A DNA stretch of 64,000 nt from the NCBI RefSeq assembly GCF_003841505.1, contig NZ_REGA01000001.1:310001-374000 (forward strand), given 5' to 3'. Both the position numbers and the translations under genes were made by a program. Every line of letters begins with the position of its first letter. Within the stretch, counting starts at the first letter, position 1. This DNA comes from Natrarchaeobius chitinivorans (lineage in GTDB: Archaea; Halobacteriota; Halobacteria; Halobacteriales; Natrialbaceae). The notes under the pieces were generated by a model that made no database searches, was not told the origin of the DNA, and worked only from the letters and a program-made list of their open reading frames with translations. Of the stretch, positions 922 to 18,409 are shown one piece after another.

Positions 922-1619
922 CAGGGAACCCGGACCGCGACGTCCGCGAGTCCGTCACGTGCCCGCTCTGGCGGCTCGTCCGCGACGATACGGCCGTCCC
1001 GCATGGCGATCACGCGATCGGCCATCTCGAGGACGTCTCGGAGGTCGTGGGTCGCGAGCACGACGCCGGTTCCCTCCGGAGACAGCGACTCGAGGCGGTC
1101 CAGCACGGATCGGCGAGCCGGGTCGTCGAGTCCGGTAAACGGCTCGTCGAGAACGAGATGAGTGGGTTCCATCGCGAGCGCACCGGCGATCGCGATCCGC
1201 GCCTGCTCGCCGCCCGAGAGCGTCGCGATCCGATCGTCGCCGCGGCCGCCCATGTTTACCGCCTCGAGGGCGACCGCGACTCGGCGGTCGATCTCCTCGC
1301 GCGGTAAGCCGAGGTTTTCGGGGCCGAACGCGATGTCCGCGCCGACGGTGGCAGCGACGAACTGGTCCCGGGGGTGTTGAAAGACCATGCCGACGCTCGA
1401 GCGGGCCGCGATCAGATCAGCCTCGACCGGTCGGCCGTCGACGAGGACCGATCCCTCGTCGGGCGAGAGCAGTCCGTTGCAGTGGCGCAACAGCGTCGTC
1501 TTCCCGCTGCCGTTGGCTCCGGCGAGGACGACGAACTCGCCGTCGTCGATCGACAGCGAGAGATCGGAGAGGACCGGAACGTCCTCGAAGGCGTACGAGA
1601 CGGATCGGAATTCGATCAT
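921..1619 (-). CDS. ECF transporter ATP-binding subunit EcfA (BioM-like)
   Basis: A 232-residue ABC ATPase with Walker A GANGSGKTT near residue 35, a Q-loop (FQHPRDQF) near 80, the signature LSGGEQARIAIAG near 135, Walker B HLVLDEPFTGLD near 155 and the switch His in ATHDLRDV near 190. The QHPRDQ Q-loop is characteristic of EcfA/CbiO/BioM ATPases. Only one ATPase gene is present, so the module probably uses a homodimer. It lies 12 bp downstream of bioY and overlaps ecfT by one base. Biotin uptake is inferred from this context. Confidence 0.92.
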   Translation of the reverse strand: MIEFRSVSYAFEDVPVLSDLSLSIDDGEFVVLAGANGSGKTTLLRHCNGLLSPDEGSVLVDGRPVEADLIAARSSVGMVFQHPRDQFVAATVGADIAFGPENLGLPREEIDRRVAVALEAVNMGGRGDDRIATLSGGEQARIAIAGALAMEPTHLVLDEPFTGLDDPARRSVLDRLESLSPEGTGVVLATHDLRDVLEMADRVIAMRDGRIVADEPPERARDGLADVAVRVP

Positions 1620-1631
1620 CGTCGCTCGGGA

Positions 1632-2219
1632 TTACGGCCGGACCTGTGTAATCCGTTTGCTCTTGACGATAGCGACCGCCGCGACCATCTTGAGCAGGTC
1701 GCCAACGAGGAACGGAACCATCCCCATGGCGACCGCCTCCAGGAGTTCGAGTTCGAGCAGCCAGGCCATGTAGCCGACGCCCATCCCGTAGATGACGACC
1801 ATCGATGCGACGAGCGCGACGACGACGATCGGAAGGGGTTGCTCGGCGGGGTCGCGTAGCTCGGTTCCGCGGTGGACCATAACTCCGATCAGCCACGCCG
1901 CAACCACGTACCCCCAGAGGTAGCCCCCGGTCTGGCCGAACAGAATTCCGATCCCGCTTTTCATCTCTGCGAACACCGGGAGACCGACCGCACCGGCGGT
2001 GAGATACAACAGGACCGAGAAGGGCCCCCAGACCGGCCCGAGATAGAGTCCCGCGAGGAAGACGAACAGAACCTGAAGTGTGATCGGTACCGGGGAGATC
2101 GGTATCGGAATCGAAACGGGTGCGGTCGCTCCTAACAGGGCCGCGAGTATCGCAGCTCGAGCGAACGACCGGACGACATCGTCGGCGACGGGATCGACCG
2201 ACTCTCGATGCGTTTCCAT
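1632..2219 (-). CDS. bioY: Biotin transporter substrate-binding subunit BioY
   Basis: A 195-residue membrane protein of the BioY family, the S component that binds biotin in ECF transporters. The conserved motifs PIPISPVPITLQ near residue 45 and FGQTGGYLWGY near residue 110 are visible, with about six hydrophobic segments. The ATG at 2217-2219 is the only Met close to the conserved start; the open frame runs further upstream but that part lacks family character. It is the first gene of a bioY-ecfA-ecfT operon, and a BirA-type palindrome lies 14 to 43 bp upstream of the ATG. Confidence 0.95.
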   Translation of the reverse strand: METHRESVDPVADDVVRSFARAAILAALLGATAPVSIPIPISPVPITLQVLFVFLAGLYLGPVWGPFSVLLYLTAGAVGLPVFAEMKSGIGILFGQTGGYLWGYVVAAWLIGVMVHRGTELRDPAEQPLPIVVVALVASMVVIYGMGVGYMAWLLELELLEAVAMGMVPFLVGDLLKMVAAVAIVKSKRITQVRP

Positions 2220-2232
2220 ACGCTCCGTCTCC

Positions 2233-2262
2233 CGTAAACCAAAATTAAGGTTGTGGTTTACG
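2233..2262. promoter_or_regulatory. BirA-type biotin operator upstream of bioY
   Basis: A perfect palindrome CGTAAACC-N14-GGTTTACG lies directly upstream of bioY. It matches the known BirA-box consensus TTGTAAACC-N14/15-GGTTTACAA in both core and spacing, differing only at the outermost bases. Its position over the expected promoter (AT-rich spacer AAAATTAAGG) fits repression of uptake when biotin is plentiful, by a BirA carrying an N-terminal DNA-binding domain. No birA gene is in the window. Confidence 0.85.
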
Positions 2263-2475
2263 AGGATGGAGAGGGGAAACGAAATCGGCCCCGAATTCGG
2301 GGGCAAGAATCGTTCGAAACCACGAATTCCTTTCGATTTCGATGACGGTCCGTCGACGCCGACAGTTCGAGAAGCGGGCGATAGCCCCGGTGAGAGGCCA
2401 CTCGTCCGCAGGTCTCGGATGCGTTCTCGAGTAAGACGCGATTGTCTCGAGGAGCTAACTGGAACGACCGGGCCG
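2263..2475. other. Intergenic stretch with no gene seen
   Basis: Between the biotin operator and the next promoter I find no open frame with haloarchaeal codon character, no RNA gene and no clear repeat. Confidence 0.5.
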
Positions 2476-2481
2476 TTTATA
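2476..2481 (+). promoter_or_regulatory. TATA-like box upstream of the 2511 small ORF
   Basis: TTTATA sits in a GC-rich context 35 bp before the ATG at 2511. The transcription start expected about 27 bp downstream would fall near 2503, leaving a leader of only a few bases, as is usual in haloarchaea. It would drive the small ORF and, through it, the 1481-residue protein. Confidence 0.5.
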
Positions 2482-2510
2482 CGCGAATTCGATCCGCTCA
2501 CGTGAGACGG

Positions 2511-2717
2511 ATGTACATCGCCAGTGCGTGGTTCGGAACGCAGGGGAATCGATCGACGGGATGGTATCGGTGGGCCGGAACGGATGGTGCGGATCGGTAC
2601 TCGAGTGGCGAGACCGACGAACGGGTCAGGCGCGGATCGGCCGTCGCGAAGGGGCGTCTGGCCGTCGCAGGGAGTCGATTCGTGAAGGGACGGCTGGCCG
2701 CCGAGGGGGGTCGGTAA
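2511..2717 (+). CDS. Possible small Arg/Gly-rich leader ORF in front of the giant repeat protein
   Basis: A 68-residue frame starts with ATG 35 bp after a TATA-like box and ends with TAA at 2715-2717, immediately followed, in the same frame, by the ATG of the giant protein gene. The product is rich in Arg, Gly, Ser and Trp and has a duplicated AKGRLAV/VKGRLAA segment near its end. It is basic, which is unusual for a haloarchaeal protein, and I recognise no family. It may be a real upstream peptide, a translated leader that couples to the next gene, or a chance frame. The TAA-ATG junction and the promoter position argue for translation. Confidence 0.35.
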   Translation: MYIASAWFGTQGNRSTGWYRWAGTDGADRYSSGETDERVRRGSAVAKGRLAVAGSRFVKGRLAAEGGR

Positions 2718-5700
2718 ATGCCCTCGCGTGCGGGTCTTGGAGTGGTGGTCGTCGCAGCCGTCATGGTAACCAGCATCGTCGCCCTCCCGCTGCTCGGCGG
2801 CGGTCTCGGCAGCGTTCTCGAGGGGTCCGAAACCGGCGAGGAGGCCTCGGCGCTCGAGGGAGGGGGCGATCTCCTCGAGTCGGTCGACACGGCTAACGAC
2901 GCCGCTGGTTCGACCGATTCGGGAGGCGTTCAGGCTGGGCCCGGCGTCGAACTCGTCTCGATGGCGGCGGCCGAATCCGGCTCGAGTGCCGAACTGTCGA
3001 TCTCTCAGGAACACGAGACCGCCGTCGAAGACGGCGTCGACGAGGGGATCGAACTCGCCCAGTCACAGGGCGTCGAGGTGAGCCAGGAGCAGCGCGCGAC
3101 CGCGGTCGAGGCAGCCACCGACGCCGTCGTCCAGCACCAGGAAGCCGAAATCGAACAGGTTCAGCGGGCGACCGCGGGTGCGGTTCACGGCTCGCTGATG
3201 CAGGCCCAGGCGGTCGAGGCCGAAGGGATGCAGTCGGCGGTCGCCGGAGCGACCGGCGGCGCGCTCTCGCAGTACCAGACGGTCGAGGCGAGCCAGATGC
3301 AGAGTGCGAGCTGGGGCGCGGCCCACGGCGCGCTCGCCCAGAAACAGCGCGTGACCGTCGAGCAGATACAGGTCGCGACGTACGGCGCAGCGGCCGGTGC
3401 CGCGAGCGAGGCCGGCGAGAAGGGGATCGATCGAACGCCGAAGATCCAGGAAGCCGCCCAGGGTGCGGCCTACGGCGTCCTCGACCAGTATCAGCGGATC
3501 ACCGTCGAGCAACGCCAGGAGATAACCCTCGAGCACGTCCGCCACGCGGCGGCGGGCGCGTCGGCCGGTGCGCTCGAAGGGAGCACCGAGGCCGTCCTCG
3601 AGCAAGAGCAGGTGATCGAGATCGAACAACACCAGCGGGTAGACATAAAGCAGGTTCAGAAAGCGGCGAAGGGCGCGGCGAAAGGCGCGCTCGTCCAGAA
3701 GCAGACGGTGACGGTCGAACAGACCCAGGCCGCCGCACGCGGGGCGGGGAAAGGGTCACTGAAGCAGGTCCAGTCGGTTCGAATCGAACAGGTTCAGCGG
3801 ATCTCGATCACGATGATCCAGGAAGCTTCGTTCGGTGCCGCGAAGGGGGCGATCGTCCAGAGTCAGGAGGCGACGGTCGAACAGATTCAGGCGGCTGCTG
3901 ACGGGGCTGCGGGCGGGACTCTCGTCCAGCATCAGGAGATCTCGATCACGCAGATCCAGTACGCCGCGACCGGGGCCTCGAAAGGCGTGGTCGAGTCGGC
4001 GATCCAGTACCAGGTCGTCGAGGTCGAACAGATTCAGGCCGCTGCACGCGGGGCCGGTGAAGGTGCGGTCCTCCAGAAGCAGGTCGTCGACGTCACGCAG
4101 GTTCAGGCCCTCGCGAGCGGTACCTCGAGCGGAACGCTCGCACAGCACCAGGAGGCGACGGTCACACAGCTCCAGGTGGCGTCTCGAAGCGCCGCCCAGG
4201 AGACGGCCAGAGCAATCCAGTACCAGCGCGTCAGCATCACCCAGCTACAGGTGCTGTCCCAGGAGACTGCGGCTGACACGACAGCCTACGCGGTCTCGGA
4301 GGACACCGACGACGAGACGCAACTCGTCCAGTTCGTCGAAGTCGAAGTCGTCCAGAAGGTCGAGGAGATCGACGAACTCGAGGGGACGGCGACGATCACG
4401 TTCTCCGATCAAGAATCCGACGGAGAGAGCGTCGTCGTGGACGACGTGGAGCTCTCGGAAGGCGGGTTCGTGGCGATCTACGACGGGATGGACGTCGACG
4501 CGGATCCCGATGGCGTGATCGGCGTCTCGAGTTACCTCGAGTCCGGCGACCACGAGGACCTCGAGATCGAACTCGCGGACCCGCTCGCCGAAAGCGGACC
4601 GCTCGTCGCGGTCGTCCACCACGACACGACCGGCGACGAGACGTTCCAGTACGGCGAAACCGACGGCGCGGAGGACGAACCGTACGTCGCAGACGGCGGA
4701 GGGCCGGTCCTCGACGCCGCGTTCGTGACGGTCGAGGAGCCGACTGAAGACGAAGCGTCCCTCTCGGTATCCGATCAGGAAGGCGACGGGGAAACCCTCG
4801 TCGTCGACGAGGCGAACGCGTCGGTCGAGTACGTCGTCGCGGCCGAGTACGACGGCGAGCGGGTCGACAGCGACTCGTTCGACGCCGGCGAACCGGTCGA
4901 ACCGCTCGAACTCGACCTCGAGCCGGCGCTCGAGGAGAACGCGACCGTCGACGTCTCCGTACGATCGGTCGCGGACGACGAGGTACTCGCGAGCGAATCG
5001 ATCGAGTACACGGTCGTGGACGCGCCGCCGGACGACGCCGACGCGACCCTCGCGATTAGCGATCAGGACGGCAGCGGCGAGGCGGTCGTCGTCGAGCAGG
5101 CGAGCGCGGACGTTCCGTTCGCGATCATCGTCACCGACGAGGACGGCGAGATACGCGGCGAAAGCGTCCCGTTCGAGGCGAACGAGGTCGTCGAGAACGA
5201 GAGCATCGGAATCGACCCGCCGCTCGAGGAGGACGCGACCGTCGAGGTGGCCGTCGTTTCGCTTGCCGACCTCGGGGGTGACGACGCGAACTCGGAATTC
5301 ACGGAGAACCCGGGCCTCGAGACGCTCTCCGGCGACATCGACGCATCCGTCGCGTCCGATACTGTCGCCGTCGGCGAATCTGAATCGCTCGATGACGTCC
5401 CCGTGACACCCCTCGAGAGCGTCGACGTCGACGACGCGCCGGTCCTCGAGAGCGAGACGATCGAGTACACCGTCGAGGACGTCCCGCCCGAGTTCGACGT
5501 CGAGTTCGTCGACTGTTTCGAAGCGAACGTGACCGGCTCCTTCGAGGACGGCGACACCGTCATCGTGGCGACCGGTTTCTACGAGTCGAGCGGCTTCGGG
5601 AACACGATGGGCGAGTACGCGATCACCGTCGGCGACGACGTCGACGCCCCGCTCGAGGGGACGATCGTCTTCGAGGTCGGCGAGGAGTACGAGATCACAG

Positions 5701-15913: not shown

Positions 15914-16177
15914 ATGCTCTCACTCACGCTCGAGGAGTTCATGGTTGAGCTAAACGAGGGGTCGATCAAGAACGTCGGCCCGAAGAACAAGTCCGCGACG
16001 GCCAAACTGTTCGACGTCGAGTCGGCGGAGGCTCGCGAATTTGGCGACAAGCGGGTCAAATTCGTCTTCGAAGACGAGGACGGTAACGAGATTCAGGTGT
16101 CTCTGTTTCCCGAACACGTCCGAACGATCGCCGACGATATCGACGCACTCGAGGAGGATTCCCCGGTTTTCGACTGA
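15914..16177 (+). CDS. Conserved hypothetical small protein
   Basis: An 87-residue acidic protein ([20 protein letters not shown]...) with a mixed alpha/beta pattern, no Cys pair and no membrane segment. Its composition and regular spacing after a TTTTTTA box about 25 bp before the ATG support a real leaderless gene. I do not recognise the family. The alternative upstream start at 15875 would overlap the promoter. Confidence 0.6.
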
Positions 16178-16267
16178 CGTGACGACCGACGCAGTCGGTC
16201 TCGGCGAGATCGAAGCGCGGACGCATTTCGACAACCGTTTTAGGGCGAAACTGCTTGAACCGAATAG

Positions 16268-18409
16268 ATGGGTAACTGCATCATCTGTGGCACACCCGTT
16301 GACGGCGAGATCTGCAAGAGCCACGAGGAGGACGTTGTCTTCGAATTTCGTGGAACTGCAGCCTCGCAACTTACCCCCAAGCGGTACTACCTTGGGACCG
16401 TCGACGGCTATGCCGACTTCGGCGTCTTCGTAGACGTCGGAGATCACGTAACCGGACTGTTGCACAGAAGCGAACTAGACCAACGACTCGAGAGCCTCGA
16501 GTGGGAACCCGGCGACGACGTCTTCGTCCAAGTTCTCGACGTTCGAGACAACGGAAACGTCGACCTCGGCTGGTCGATCCGCCAGCGCGAACGAGAGTTC
16601 CGCGGCAAACTGATCGAGACGGCGGACGACGAGTTCCGACCGGAAACCTTCGACGAGGAGAGCGGAACGTCCGAGTCGGCGTCCGAGGCGGACGCCACAG
16701 CGGCCGACGACGACACGACGGAGAGCGCGGAGTCCGATCAGGAGTCTGAAACCGCGGATCAGCCGTCACCGGACACGCCGAGTGCGACCGAAGCCGTCAC
16801 CGGCGGAAGCGGTTCGGTCGCCACGGAGACGGCGACCGCGTCCACCCCAGCGACCGACAGCGAAGAATCCGACGACGAACCCGCGCTCAAGCGGGCGACG
16901 ATCGACTCGATCGGCGACCAGATCGGAAGCGTCGTCAGACTCGAAGGCGAGATCACGGGCGTTCGCCAGACGAGCGGCCCGACCGTGTTCGAACTACGAG
17001 ACGAGTCTGCAACCGTCGAGTGCGCCGCATTCGAGGAGGCGGGCGTCAGAGCCTACCCCGACGTCGACGTCGACGACGTCGTCGCCCTGGAAGGGGAAGT
17101 CGAACGCCACCACGGCGACCTGCAGGTCGAAACCGAGACGCTCGAGATCCTCGACGGTGAGGACGCCGAGACCGTCGCCGAACGCCTCGAGAACGCGATC
17201 GAGCGCGAAGCCCGACCGGCGGAGATCGACACGCTCGCCGACCACGACGCGGTGAGCGCGGTCGAAGACTCGATCGAGGACGCGGCGACCGCGATTCGGC
17301 GTGCGGTCGTCGAAGCGCGTCCGGTCGTCGTCCGCCACTGTGCGACCGCGGACGGCTACGTCGCCGGCGCGGCGATCGAACGGGCCGTGTTGCCGCTGGT
17401 CCGAGACAAGCACACGCGCGAGGACGCGGAGTATCACTACTTCGAGCGACGGCCGCTCGACGATCGCGTCTACGGCATGGACACCGCGACCGACGACGTC
17501 ACGACGATGCTCGAGGCCCGGGACCGACACGGCGAACAGCTCCCGCTCGTGGTCCTCGTCGACGCCGGTTCGACCGTCGAATCCGTCGACGGCTACGACC
17601 TCCTCTCGCTGTACGACGCCGAAGCGATCGTTATCGACGACAGCCGCGCCGACGAGGAGGTCACGAACGCCGTCTCCACCGAGGTCGCCCCGTCGCTCGA
17701 CGGAGCGGACGTCTCCGATCTGACGTCGACGGCACTGGCGGCCAACGTCGCAGCCCACGTCAACGAAGACGTCCGGGACGACCTCGAACACCTCCCGGCC
17801 GTCAGCTACTGGGAGGACACGCCCGAATCGTACCTCGAGCTCGCCTCCGAGGCGGGGTACGACGAGACCGCGATCTCCGAACGCCGCGAGGCCGTCGCCC
17901 TCGAGGCGTACTACCAGTCGTACAAGGACAAGCGCGAACTCGTCGCCGACCTCCTGTTCGGCGACGGCGGAGCGGCCGACGAGAGTCGTGACGGCGAACT
18001 CGCGGCCCACGTCTCCGAGCAGTTCCGCGCGAAACTCGAGACGGAACTCGAGACCGCACGCGAGAACCTGTCGACCGAAGACGTCGGCGGGATCACCGTC
18101 GCCGTCCTCGATACGGGCGCGTTCACCCACCGCTACAACTTCCCGACGACGACGCTCCTGCTCGATGCCCTCCACCGACAGCGGGCGTCCGAAACGGTGG
18201 TCACGCTCGGCGTCGGCGACGACGAGCTGCACGTCCGTGCGGCCGACTCGCTGAACGTCCGCGAGTTGGGCGACGCGATCGCCGAGGCGGTGCCTGACGC
18301 CGGCGTCAGCGTCGTCGGCGGAGCGGACGGCCACGTCGAGTACCTGCCGGGCGAACGCGACGCCGTCCGCGAGGCCGCACTCGAGGCACTCGCGGACCTG
18401 CTCGCATAA
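16268..18409 (+). CDS. RecJ/DHH-family protein with zinc finger, S1 and OB domains and a degenerate active site
   Basis: The 713-residue protein has an N-terminal CxxC...CxxH zinc finger (residues 4-19), an S1 RNA-binding domain (about 40-105), an acidic Ser/Thr linker (about 130-215), an OB-fold domain (about 220-298), and a DHH/DHHA1-type phosphoesterase domain (about 350-713). The phosphoesterase motifs are eroded: motif I reads HCATADG instead of HxDxDG, and the DHH motif reads IDDSRAD (Asp457-Asp458-Ser459), so both His are lost; VDAGS near 432 remains. Loss of metal ligands suggests little nuclease activity and a binding or structural role, comparable to the inactive RecJ-like (Cdc45-related) proteins of archaea. 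That comparison is inference. Confidence 0.85.
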   Translation: MGNCIICGTPVDGEICKSHEEDVVFEFRGTAASQLTPKRYYLGTVDGYADFGVFVDVGDHVTGLLHRSELDQRLESLEWEPGDDVFVQVLDVRDNGNVDLGWSIRQREREFRGKLIETADDEFRPETFDEESGTSESASEADATAADDDTTESAESDQESETADQPSPDTPSATEAVTGGSGSVATETATASTPATDSEESDDEPALKRATIDSIGDQIGSVVRLEGEITGVRQTSGPTVFELRDESATVECAAFEEAGVRAYPDVDVDDVVALEGEVERHHGDLQVETETLEILDGEDAETVAERLENAIEREARPAEIDTLADHDAVSAVEDSIEDAATAIRRAVVEARPVVVRHCATADGYVAGAAIERAVLPLVRDKHTREDAEYHYFERRPLDDRVYGMDTATDDVTTMLEARDRHGEQLPLVVLVDAGSTVESVDGYDLLSLYDAEAIVIDDSRADEEVTNAVSTEVAPSLDGADVSDLTSTALAANVAAHVNEDVRDDLEHLPAVSYWEDTPESYLELASEAGYDETAISERREAVALEAYYQSYKDKRELVADLLFGDGGAADESRDGELAAHVSEQFRAKLETELETARENLSTEDVGGITVAVLDTGAFTHRYNFPTTTLLLDALHRQRASETVVTLGVGDDELHVRAADSLNVRELGDAIAEAVPDAGVSVVGGADGHVEYLPGERDAVREAALEALADLLA

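Follow-up and report, generated by a model that had tools for sequence, protein, structure and literature searches.

The window considered here is a 64,000-nucleotide stretch of Natrarchaeobius chitinivorans DNA (positions 310001–374000 of contig C1, in a genome of 4.57 Mb), and the gene of interest is recJ4, at 16268–18409 on its forward strand. The analysis makes it very probable that recJ4 encodes a paralogue of the HAN (Hef-associated nuclease) enzymes that has no active site, and that this protein is the non-catalytic half of a RecJ3:RecJ4 heteromer bridging to aRNase J. As judged from sequence comparison, the window protein is the haloarchaeal orthologue of Haloferax volcanii RecJ4 (HVO_2889), that is, an already known protein. 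What appears new beyond the published RecJ4 is a zinc finger, a set of RecJ4-specific residues by the dead site, and a dedicated upstream element.

In H. volcanii, RecJ4 is described as what appears to be the scaffold of a 3'-5' exonuclease complex, RecJ3:RecJ4:aRNase J, with a stoichiometry of 2:2:1, which digests both RNA and single-stranded DNA (ssDNA) and in which RecJ4 is needed to link RecJ3 with aRNase J (PMC10470531). According to the same account, the protein belongs to the HAN group, is missing active-site residues, has an intrinsically disordered region (IDR) at H104–L236 and carries a SAMP2 remnant on K358; the recJ4 deletion mutant is phleomycin-sensitive, and recJ3 and recJ4 are non-essential, while aRNase J is essential. 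RecJ3, RecJ4 and RNase J also appear in a Cas1 interaction table (PMC9051519). The initial annotation of the gene, made from the DNA letters, had read it as an inactive nucleic-acid-binding scaffold and had pointed to RNA rather than to Cdc45. By analogy, both suggestions come close to the role published for the orthologue, which joins an RNase in a complex that acts on RNA as well as ssDNA (PMC10470531). What looked like a puzzling dead RecJ would thus become a known pseudo-nuclease scaffold, and further work is steered away from the Cdc45 hypothesis.

The open reading frame (ORF) starts at an ATG and its product of 713 residues consists, from the N to the C terminus, of a C-x2-C-x8-C-x2-H finger, an S1 domain, a disordered linker, and OB, DHH and DHHA1 domains. 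An AlphaFold2 model based on an alignment of 93 sequences has a mean predicted local distance difference test score (pLDDT) of 88.6 and a predicted template modelling score (pTM) of 0.73, with disorder (pLDDT <50) at residues 135–199, between S1 and OB. The Pfam scan of the protein gave no match for the finger or for the DHH domain. The features are the following.

16268–18409, forward strand: recJ4, catalytically dead HAN paralogue, 713 residues (ORF, profile search, family counts, tree and fold match)
16268–16333, forward strand: N-terminal zinc finger C4-x2-C7-x8-C16-x2-H19 (ligands kept in 135 of 140 RecJ4; pLDDT about 90; zinc binding predicted)
16370–16603, forward strand: S1 domain (Pfam PF00575, 30.6 bits, cut-off 22)
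16604–16888, forward strand: disordered linker, residues 113–207, rich in Asp/Glu and Ser/Thr (pLDDT <50 at 135–199)
16889–17155, forward strand: OB-fold (tRNA_anti-codon) domain (Pfam PF01336, 47.6 bits, cut-off 27)
17255–18067, forward strand: degenerate DHH domain (match to 5yh1; motif counts)
17333–17359, forward strand: motif I, RHCATADGY, first Asp lost (T360; counts at position 360 in 140 RecJ4)
17558–17575, forward strand: motif II, VDAGST, with Asp432 present in the window protein (outside Natrialbaceae, mostly Gly or Ala)
17630–17644, forward strand: motif III, VIDDS, replacing DHH (both positions without His in all 138 RecJ4)
17792–17824, forward strand: LPAVSYWEDTP, at the place of the HAN GDRS segment, with the RecJ4-specific W515 and P519 (each in 137 of 138 RecJ4)
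18068–18406, forward strand: DHHA1 domain without the GGGH motif (0 of 140 RecJ4, against 41 of 41 other sequences)

The assignment to the HAN branch rests on both sequence and fold. HAN_nuclease (arCOG00429/NF053577) is the best NCBIfam match, with an expectation value (E) of 1.3e-120, and the P. furiosus HAN 5yh1 is the best sequence match of known structure (E 5.4e-52). The latter is also the best fold match of the model, with a Z score of 43.4 and a root-mean-square deviation of 2.4 Å over 414 residues. A comparison of a model with GAN, Cdc45 and RecJ had been proposed at the outset, and all three groups score far lower: bacterial RecJ does not exceed 27.2, archaeal RecJ/GAN lies at about 19–26 (P. 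furiosus RecJ, 5x4h, at 24.1), and the highest value for Cdc45 is 22.3 (human Cdc45, 7pfo; 19.1 for 5dgo). The label RecJ-like is therefore appropriate for the DHH fold and has to be given up for the bacterial RecJ or GAN branch. The zinc finger, S1 and OB modules named in the initial annotation are all present. A DnaJ-like zinc finger and two OB folds together with a DHH region have been described for HAN itself (PMC5717133), and the modules are thus no novel fusion onto a dead RecJ, as had been supposed, since they come with the active enzyme. As far as PMC3307487 bears on this, it reports a zinc/S1/OB N-terminus for no branch other than HAN. The window protein shares with HAN (the T. kodakarensis protein and P. 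furiosus 5yh1) the zinc finger, two OB-type domains, DHH and DHHA1 (PMC5717133) and the same core fold. It differs in that HAN is a nuclease with catalytic motifs, which the window protein does not have, and in its expanded and disordered linker.

In the class sample, all 116 genomes have a match, 115 of them at E 1.2e-146 or better (RecJ4 grade); the odd one, G021, has an active-type HAN match only (7e-80). Each of the 170 genomes of family f4 matches another RecJ4 at E ≤1e-100. Matches were obtained in 136 of the 196 genomes in the phylum sample, and 33 of the matching genomes are haloarchaeal. Outside the order there are 103 matching genomes; one match was seen in 73 of them and two in 30. 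When these 30 and G021 were searched again, each turned out to contain just one HAN, to which the matches belonged as fragments, once spread over two contigs.

A tree was calculated from 70 rows, among them 30 RecJ4, 20 RecJ3 and G021. The RecJ4 sequences form one clade with a support of 100 in the Shimodaira–Hasegawa-like approximate likelihood ratio test (SH-aLRT) and a stem of 1.64, and the RecJ3 sequences form another (SH-aLRT 100, stem 0.35). Both lie together with G021 in a haloarchaeal clade (support 97), and the window RecJ4 falls among Natrialbaceae. On this phylogeny, RecJ4 is the product of a HAN duplication inside the haloarchaeal lineage and has subsequently lost the metal-binding active site. 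The second copy in the window genome, at C4:57685-59463, has intact RHHADGDG and VDHHHPD motifs; by these it is RecJ3, and it looks active.

The connection to H. volcanii was made through the locus L218, whose RecJ4 (1501-3687, reverse strand) has 729 residues and is not among the rows of the tree. It is the one of 30 Haloferacaceae-like loci that has H104, L236 and K358 all together, and we infer that L218 is either the H. volcanii RecJ4 itself or a protein closely related to it. Identity with the window protein amounts to 372 of 673 aligned positions (about 55%) and to 284 of 505 over OB-DHH-DHHA1, and L218 scores 686 bits against the window protein compared with 246 bits against the RecJ3 of the window genome. 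The two RecJ4 proteins have in common the dead DHH domain, the S1-IDR-OB-DHH-DHHA1 order with a long IDR between S1 and OB, and a genome with RecJ3 and aRNase J and without RNase PH. They differ in the C-x2-C...C-x2-H finger, which the H. volcanii form appears to lack, in the SAMP2 lysine, where the window protein has D334, and in D432 and D517, where the other protein has Gly and Asn.

We now turn to the active site. At the seven HAN catalytic positions, the window protein reads T-D-D-D-D-S-D, while all 41 RecJ3, outside HAN and G021 sequences read D-D-D-D-H-H-D. Motif I is R-H-C-A-T360-A-D362-G, i.e. the first Asp of the DxD has become Thr and the second is present, motif II is V-D432-A-G-S, and motif III is V-I-D457-D458-S459. 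The Asp-Asp-Ser in place of DHH, the lost first Asp of motif I and the preserved VDAGS had been read exactly so in the initial annotation, to which the loss of the DHHA1 GGGH motif and the disordered linker separating S1 and OB can now be added. The loss extends over the family: the HAN catalytic set occurs in none of 138 RecJ4 (41 of 41 in the comparison set), a His is found at neither DHH position in the same 138 (HH in all 41), and position 360 is T in 126, S in 8, D in 4 and N in 2 of 140 RecJ4. Residues specific to RecJ4 include W515 and P519, which flank the former motif IV Asp and are missing from one of 138 sequences apiece, and K555, present in all 138. Tyr364, considered as a further hallmark, was dropped, since a Tyr is aligned at this position in the P. 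furiosus HAN chain as well.

The median ratio of non-synonymous to synonymous substitution rates (dN/dS), obtained by simple pairwise counting in which saturation is possible, is 0.139 for the RecJ4 DHH core (238 pairs), compared to 0.107 for that of RecJ3 (21 pairs). For the other RecJ4 modules, it is lowest in the finger and S1 (residues 1–112; 0.057, 227 pairs), followed by OB (0.142, 239 pairs), DHHA1 (0.168, 239 pairs) and the linker (0.408, 240 pairs). By these ratios, the RecJ4 DHH domain is under purifying selection despite the lost catalytic set. It should be noted that about half of the RecJ4 set is from Natrialbaceae (68 of 138). Being common to the whole family, the motif decay is neither the product of a sequencing error nor a reading by chance, and family-wide conservation together with dN/dS rules out a pseudogene as well.

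The partner genes are also in place. Besides RecJ3, the window genome encodes aRNase J (423.1 bits, cut-off 400), and RNase PH, by which alone the exosome was judged, was not found in it. By analogy with H. volcanii, the RecJ3:RecJ4:aRNase J complex would be expected to form in N. chitinivorans too. In such an assembly, RecJ3 would provide the catalysis, and RecJ4 the zinc-finger, S1 and OB modules that hold RNA or ssDNA, with the finger presumably contacting nucleic acid. The long disordered RecJ4 linker would recruit aRNase J, and a dock of this kind has also been suggested by the authors of the H. volcanii work (PMC10470531). The assembly would then act as a 3'-5' exonuclease on RNA and ssDNA, restrain aRNase J, and aid recovery from DNA damage.

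A number of observations weigh against this picture. First, with 403.8 bits the window protein stays below the 840-bit cut-off of the HAN equivalog model; its module architecture and fold are those of HAN, while the intact DHH motifs are missing. Second, D362 and D457 are well conserved among RecJ4, and D362, D432, D457 and D517 are all kept in 36 of 138, mostly Natrialbaceae. In the window protein these four residues together with D458 make some residual metal binding conceivable. Third, the biochemistry comes from H. volcanii, the present species being known from sequence alone, and the H. volcanii form behind it appears to be finger-less, so that the role of the finger in RecJ4 is only putative. 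Furthermore, the SAMP2 site K358 aligns to Asp334 of the window protein, and regulation by SAMP2 can therefore not be the same here; a Lys is found in 3 of 141 RecJ4 rows including L218, and by this count the lysine is not a family-defining feature of RecJ4. Finally, G021 has neither a RecJ4 nor an RNase PH match, so that the lack of an exosome does not make RecJ4 strictly indispensable.

The alternative that survives best is a variant of the preferred explanation and differs from it in the main task, so that the probabilities of the two overlap. Here, RecJ3, RecJ4 and aRNase J would primarily take over the work of the exosome in RNA decay, the DNA-damage phenotype being indirect. We consider this possible, although the less likely assignment of the task. 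It would agree with the presence of S1 and the finger, with the RNase partner and RNA digestion by the complex (PMC10470531), and with the phylum sample, in which 125 genomes match RNase PH and none of the 33 haloarchaeal genomes is among them. However, recJ3 and recJ4 are dispensable in H. volcanii, whereas aRNase J is not, and the complex digests ssDNA too (PMC10470531). In addition, G021 and HAN-bearing genomes from outside, for example G118 and G248, have no RNase PH match and no RecJ4.

Another option considered was that RecJ4 is still an active nuclease with a rebuilt metal site, in which one or two metals would be coordinated by D362, D432, D458 and D517 instead of the canonical DxD/DHH set. 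The refilling of the metal site by other residues, foreseen in the initial annotation as a counter-case, is conceivable for the window protein, in which four aspartates are kept and Asp replaces the first His; this pattern is common in Natrialbaceae and not elsewhere. T-D-D-D-D-S-D is indeed the commonest pattern (33 of 138), and D458 is found in 64 of 68 Natrialbaceae. However, the set with D457 in place of D458 is complete in just the 36 sequences mentioned. Asp432 is found in 60 of the 68 Natrialbaceae and in 5 of the 70 remaining RecJ4, and of the same 70, 49 have Ala or Gly at position 458. The entropies at positions 458 and 459 fall in the 79th and 95th percentile of the DHH core, and the DHHA1 GGGH is also gone. 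A rebuilt site is thus not supported family-wide by the sequences and stays possible for Natrialbaceae; as an account of RecJ4 we regard it as improbable.

The third alternative equates RecJ4 with Cdc45: in haloarchaea it would be the dead RecJ of the CMG (Cdc45-MCM-GINS) helicase. The two share the DHH superfamily fold, the Cdc45 chains 7pfo and 5dgo are matched by the model, the catalytic residues are lost, and the H. volcanii homologue of Cdc45 was left open in a 2020 review, in what it says on the subject (PMC7776575). RecJ2/arCOG00428 proteins and Cdc45 are like RecJ4 in having a DHH fold with an inactivated nuclease site (PMC3307487); they differ in branch, gene neighbourhood and replisome role, the neighbourhood expected for their branch being one with S15, S3 and Pcc1. 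HAN is far closer to RecJ4 by both sequence and fold. Moreover, inactive haloarchaeal arCOG00428 proteins are reported to occupy the GAN neighbourhood with S15 and S3 (PMC3307487), and in the window genome the position beside S15 is taken by another gene. The S15 gene is on contig C19, and an ORF of 403 residues (L202:1073-2284, forward strand) that begins 9 nucleotides after it has a DHH-like N-terminal segment, TRADGDALAASG. This ORF has no Pfam match, and its similarity to GAN in the PDB is weak (E 0.65). By position and by eye it is likely a RecJ2-like protein in the Cdc45/GAN position; the sequence searches gave no confirmation of this. No GAN-type neighbour was found among the seven scanned window ORFs around and including recJ4, and RecJ4 is reported as non-essential in H. 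volcanii (PMC7776575, PMC10470531). Fold, sequence and gene neighbourhood, the latter by the adjacency to S15, thus rule out a Cdc45/GAN identity, for which we see next to no probability, and GINS and MCM are not expected as partners of RecJ4. Lastly, a decaying paralogue without a defined role, to which the long stem branch and the lost catalytic residues might point, is hardly credible in view of the RecJ4-grade matches in nearly every class genome, the low dN/dS of the finger, S1 and DHH core, the near-invariant W515, P519 and K555, the conserved upstream element, and the deletion phenotype in H. volcanii (PMC10470531).

Returning to the probable RecJ3:RecJ4 heteromer, its two halves show complementary losses. 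RecJ3 is a sister-type paralogue in the same genome with the same S1-OB-DHH-DHHA1 arrangement; unlike RecJ4, it keeps the catalytic set, has no finger (0 of 20 sequences), and has an S1–OB linker of 12–14 residues. The corresponding linker spans 63–169 residues in 138 RecJ4 and 13–14 in 20 outside HANs. The finger ligands C-C-C-H are all present in 135 of 140 RecJ4, the five others being four finger-less starts and one partial frame (L078), and the finger is found in 11 of 20 outside HANs. The HAN of G021 has both the finger and the full catalytic set. The simplest reading of these sequences is a duplication followed by a division of labour, in which RecJ3 lost the finger and RecJ4 the catalysis.

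The position of G021 was also considered with trees. In a free quick tree it joins RecJ3 with a support of 19, while a constrained tree that keeps RecJ3 and RecJ4 together without G021 has a log-likelihood 6.45 higher (p of the approximately unbiased test 0.669). These trees slightly favour a branching of G021 before the duplication over a secondary loss of RecJ4. The absence of RecJ4 could also stem from assembly loss, the genome being in about 120 contigs and the single one of its family here. The G021 gene itself, at L152:246-2195 (reverse strand) and the same as L205:4643-6595 (reverse strand), codes for an acidic protein and is in a genome of the same order.

L218 and the other 29 Haloferacaceae-like loci (L207–L236, family f4) all start with MDWITH and are finger-less, which cannot be taken as a frequency since the 30 were picked by similarity to a finger-less query. 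The protein of the model species is thus perhaps an atypical form, and the published biochemistry may miss a module that 135 of 140 RecJ4 have kept. The RecJ4 finger looks unstudied; Fig. 7A of PMC10470531 may show its distribution. Among the outside HANs (L153–L172), all 11 finger-bearing ones are in genomes with RNase PH and all 9 finger-less ones in genomes without it. The nine form one clade, so the pattern may be a single event, and G021, with a finger and no RNase PH, breaks it; we make no causal claim.

The second new element lies in front of the gene.

16226–16243, forward strand: recJ4-specific upstream element TTTCGACAACCGTTTTAG, 42 nucleotides before the start codon (conserved in RecJ4 upstreams)

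Its core CGACAANCGTTT is present in 105 of 139 RecJ4 upstreams of 100 nucleotides, and a stricter 15-base core in 86 of 139; the core was found in 0 of 41 RecJ3, HAN and G021 upstreams. When RecJ4 genes less than 70% identical are taken, TTTCGACAAYNGTTTTAG occurs with at most 3 mismatches in all 42, in 39 of them at 40–42 nucleotides before the start, while none of the shuffled upstreams reached 4 mismatches or fewer. Genome scans at up to 2 mismatches gave 1, 3 and 1 matches in the window genome (G000), G005 and G078, compared to 1, 0 and 0 for a reversed control pattern. The sole perfect match in each of these genomes is the one in front of recJ4 (G000:C1:326226-326243 in the window genome). 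The best shared 18-mer has 29.6 bits in 12 recJ4 upstreams, compared with 15.2 in 12 recJ3 upstreams, which are the sole other promoter set used for the comparison, and 13.3 in shuffles; of the two sets, recJ4 is the more divergent, with a mean identity of 0.54 against 0.67. A sigma-70 type scan carries no information for archaea. The near-fixed distance and the T-rich 3' half suggest a promoter of the BRE/TATA type (BRE, transcription factor B recognition element). Probably, the transcript is leaderless and the element combines its BRE/TATA region with an additional binding site.

A literature search that included the element strings found no description of it, and this recJ4-only element, conserved across haloarchaeal families, looks unstudied. 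It gives a handle on the control of the complex in haloarchaea, where no RNase PH exosome gene was found here. One can speculate that the pieces belong together: a HAN duplication gave two mutually dependent halves by complementary loss, and recJ4 came under dedicated control through the TTTCGACAAYNGTTTTAG element. In this tentative scheme, RecJ3 would be the blade without the finger, and RecJ4 the finger without the blade, having gained the disordered dock and the Trp and Pro by the dead site. Either the complex itself or a single dedicated regulator might bind the element. If the scheme holds, the amount of scaffold would decide whether aRNase J is free or harnessed.

Directly upstream of recJ4 there is a further candidate.

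15914–16177, forward strand: small conserved acidic ORF of about 87 residues, possible operon partner (upstream of recJ4)

It lies directly upstream of recJ4 on the same strand (gap <400 nucleotides) in 42 of 67 loci including the window, elsewhere in the locus in 7, and was not found in 18; no family reaches the cut-off in a Pfam scan of it. The scanned neighbours of recJ4 in the window encode a metallo-beta-lactamase, OsmC, SHOCT, DUF411 and an M24 peptidase, together with one small ORF without a Pfam family.

Two other loci may be mentioned. The recJ3 of the window genome is adjoined on the opposite strand by a JAB-domain gene (Prok-JAB, 37.5 bits; L203:966-1571, reverse strand), which is of interest given the published ubiquitin-like link. 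Near the HAN of G021, an ORF of 939 residues (L205:7303-10122, forward strand) reads by eye as RtcB with an intein (insert CLSGDTEV...VVSNC).

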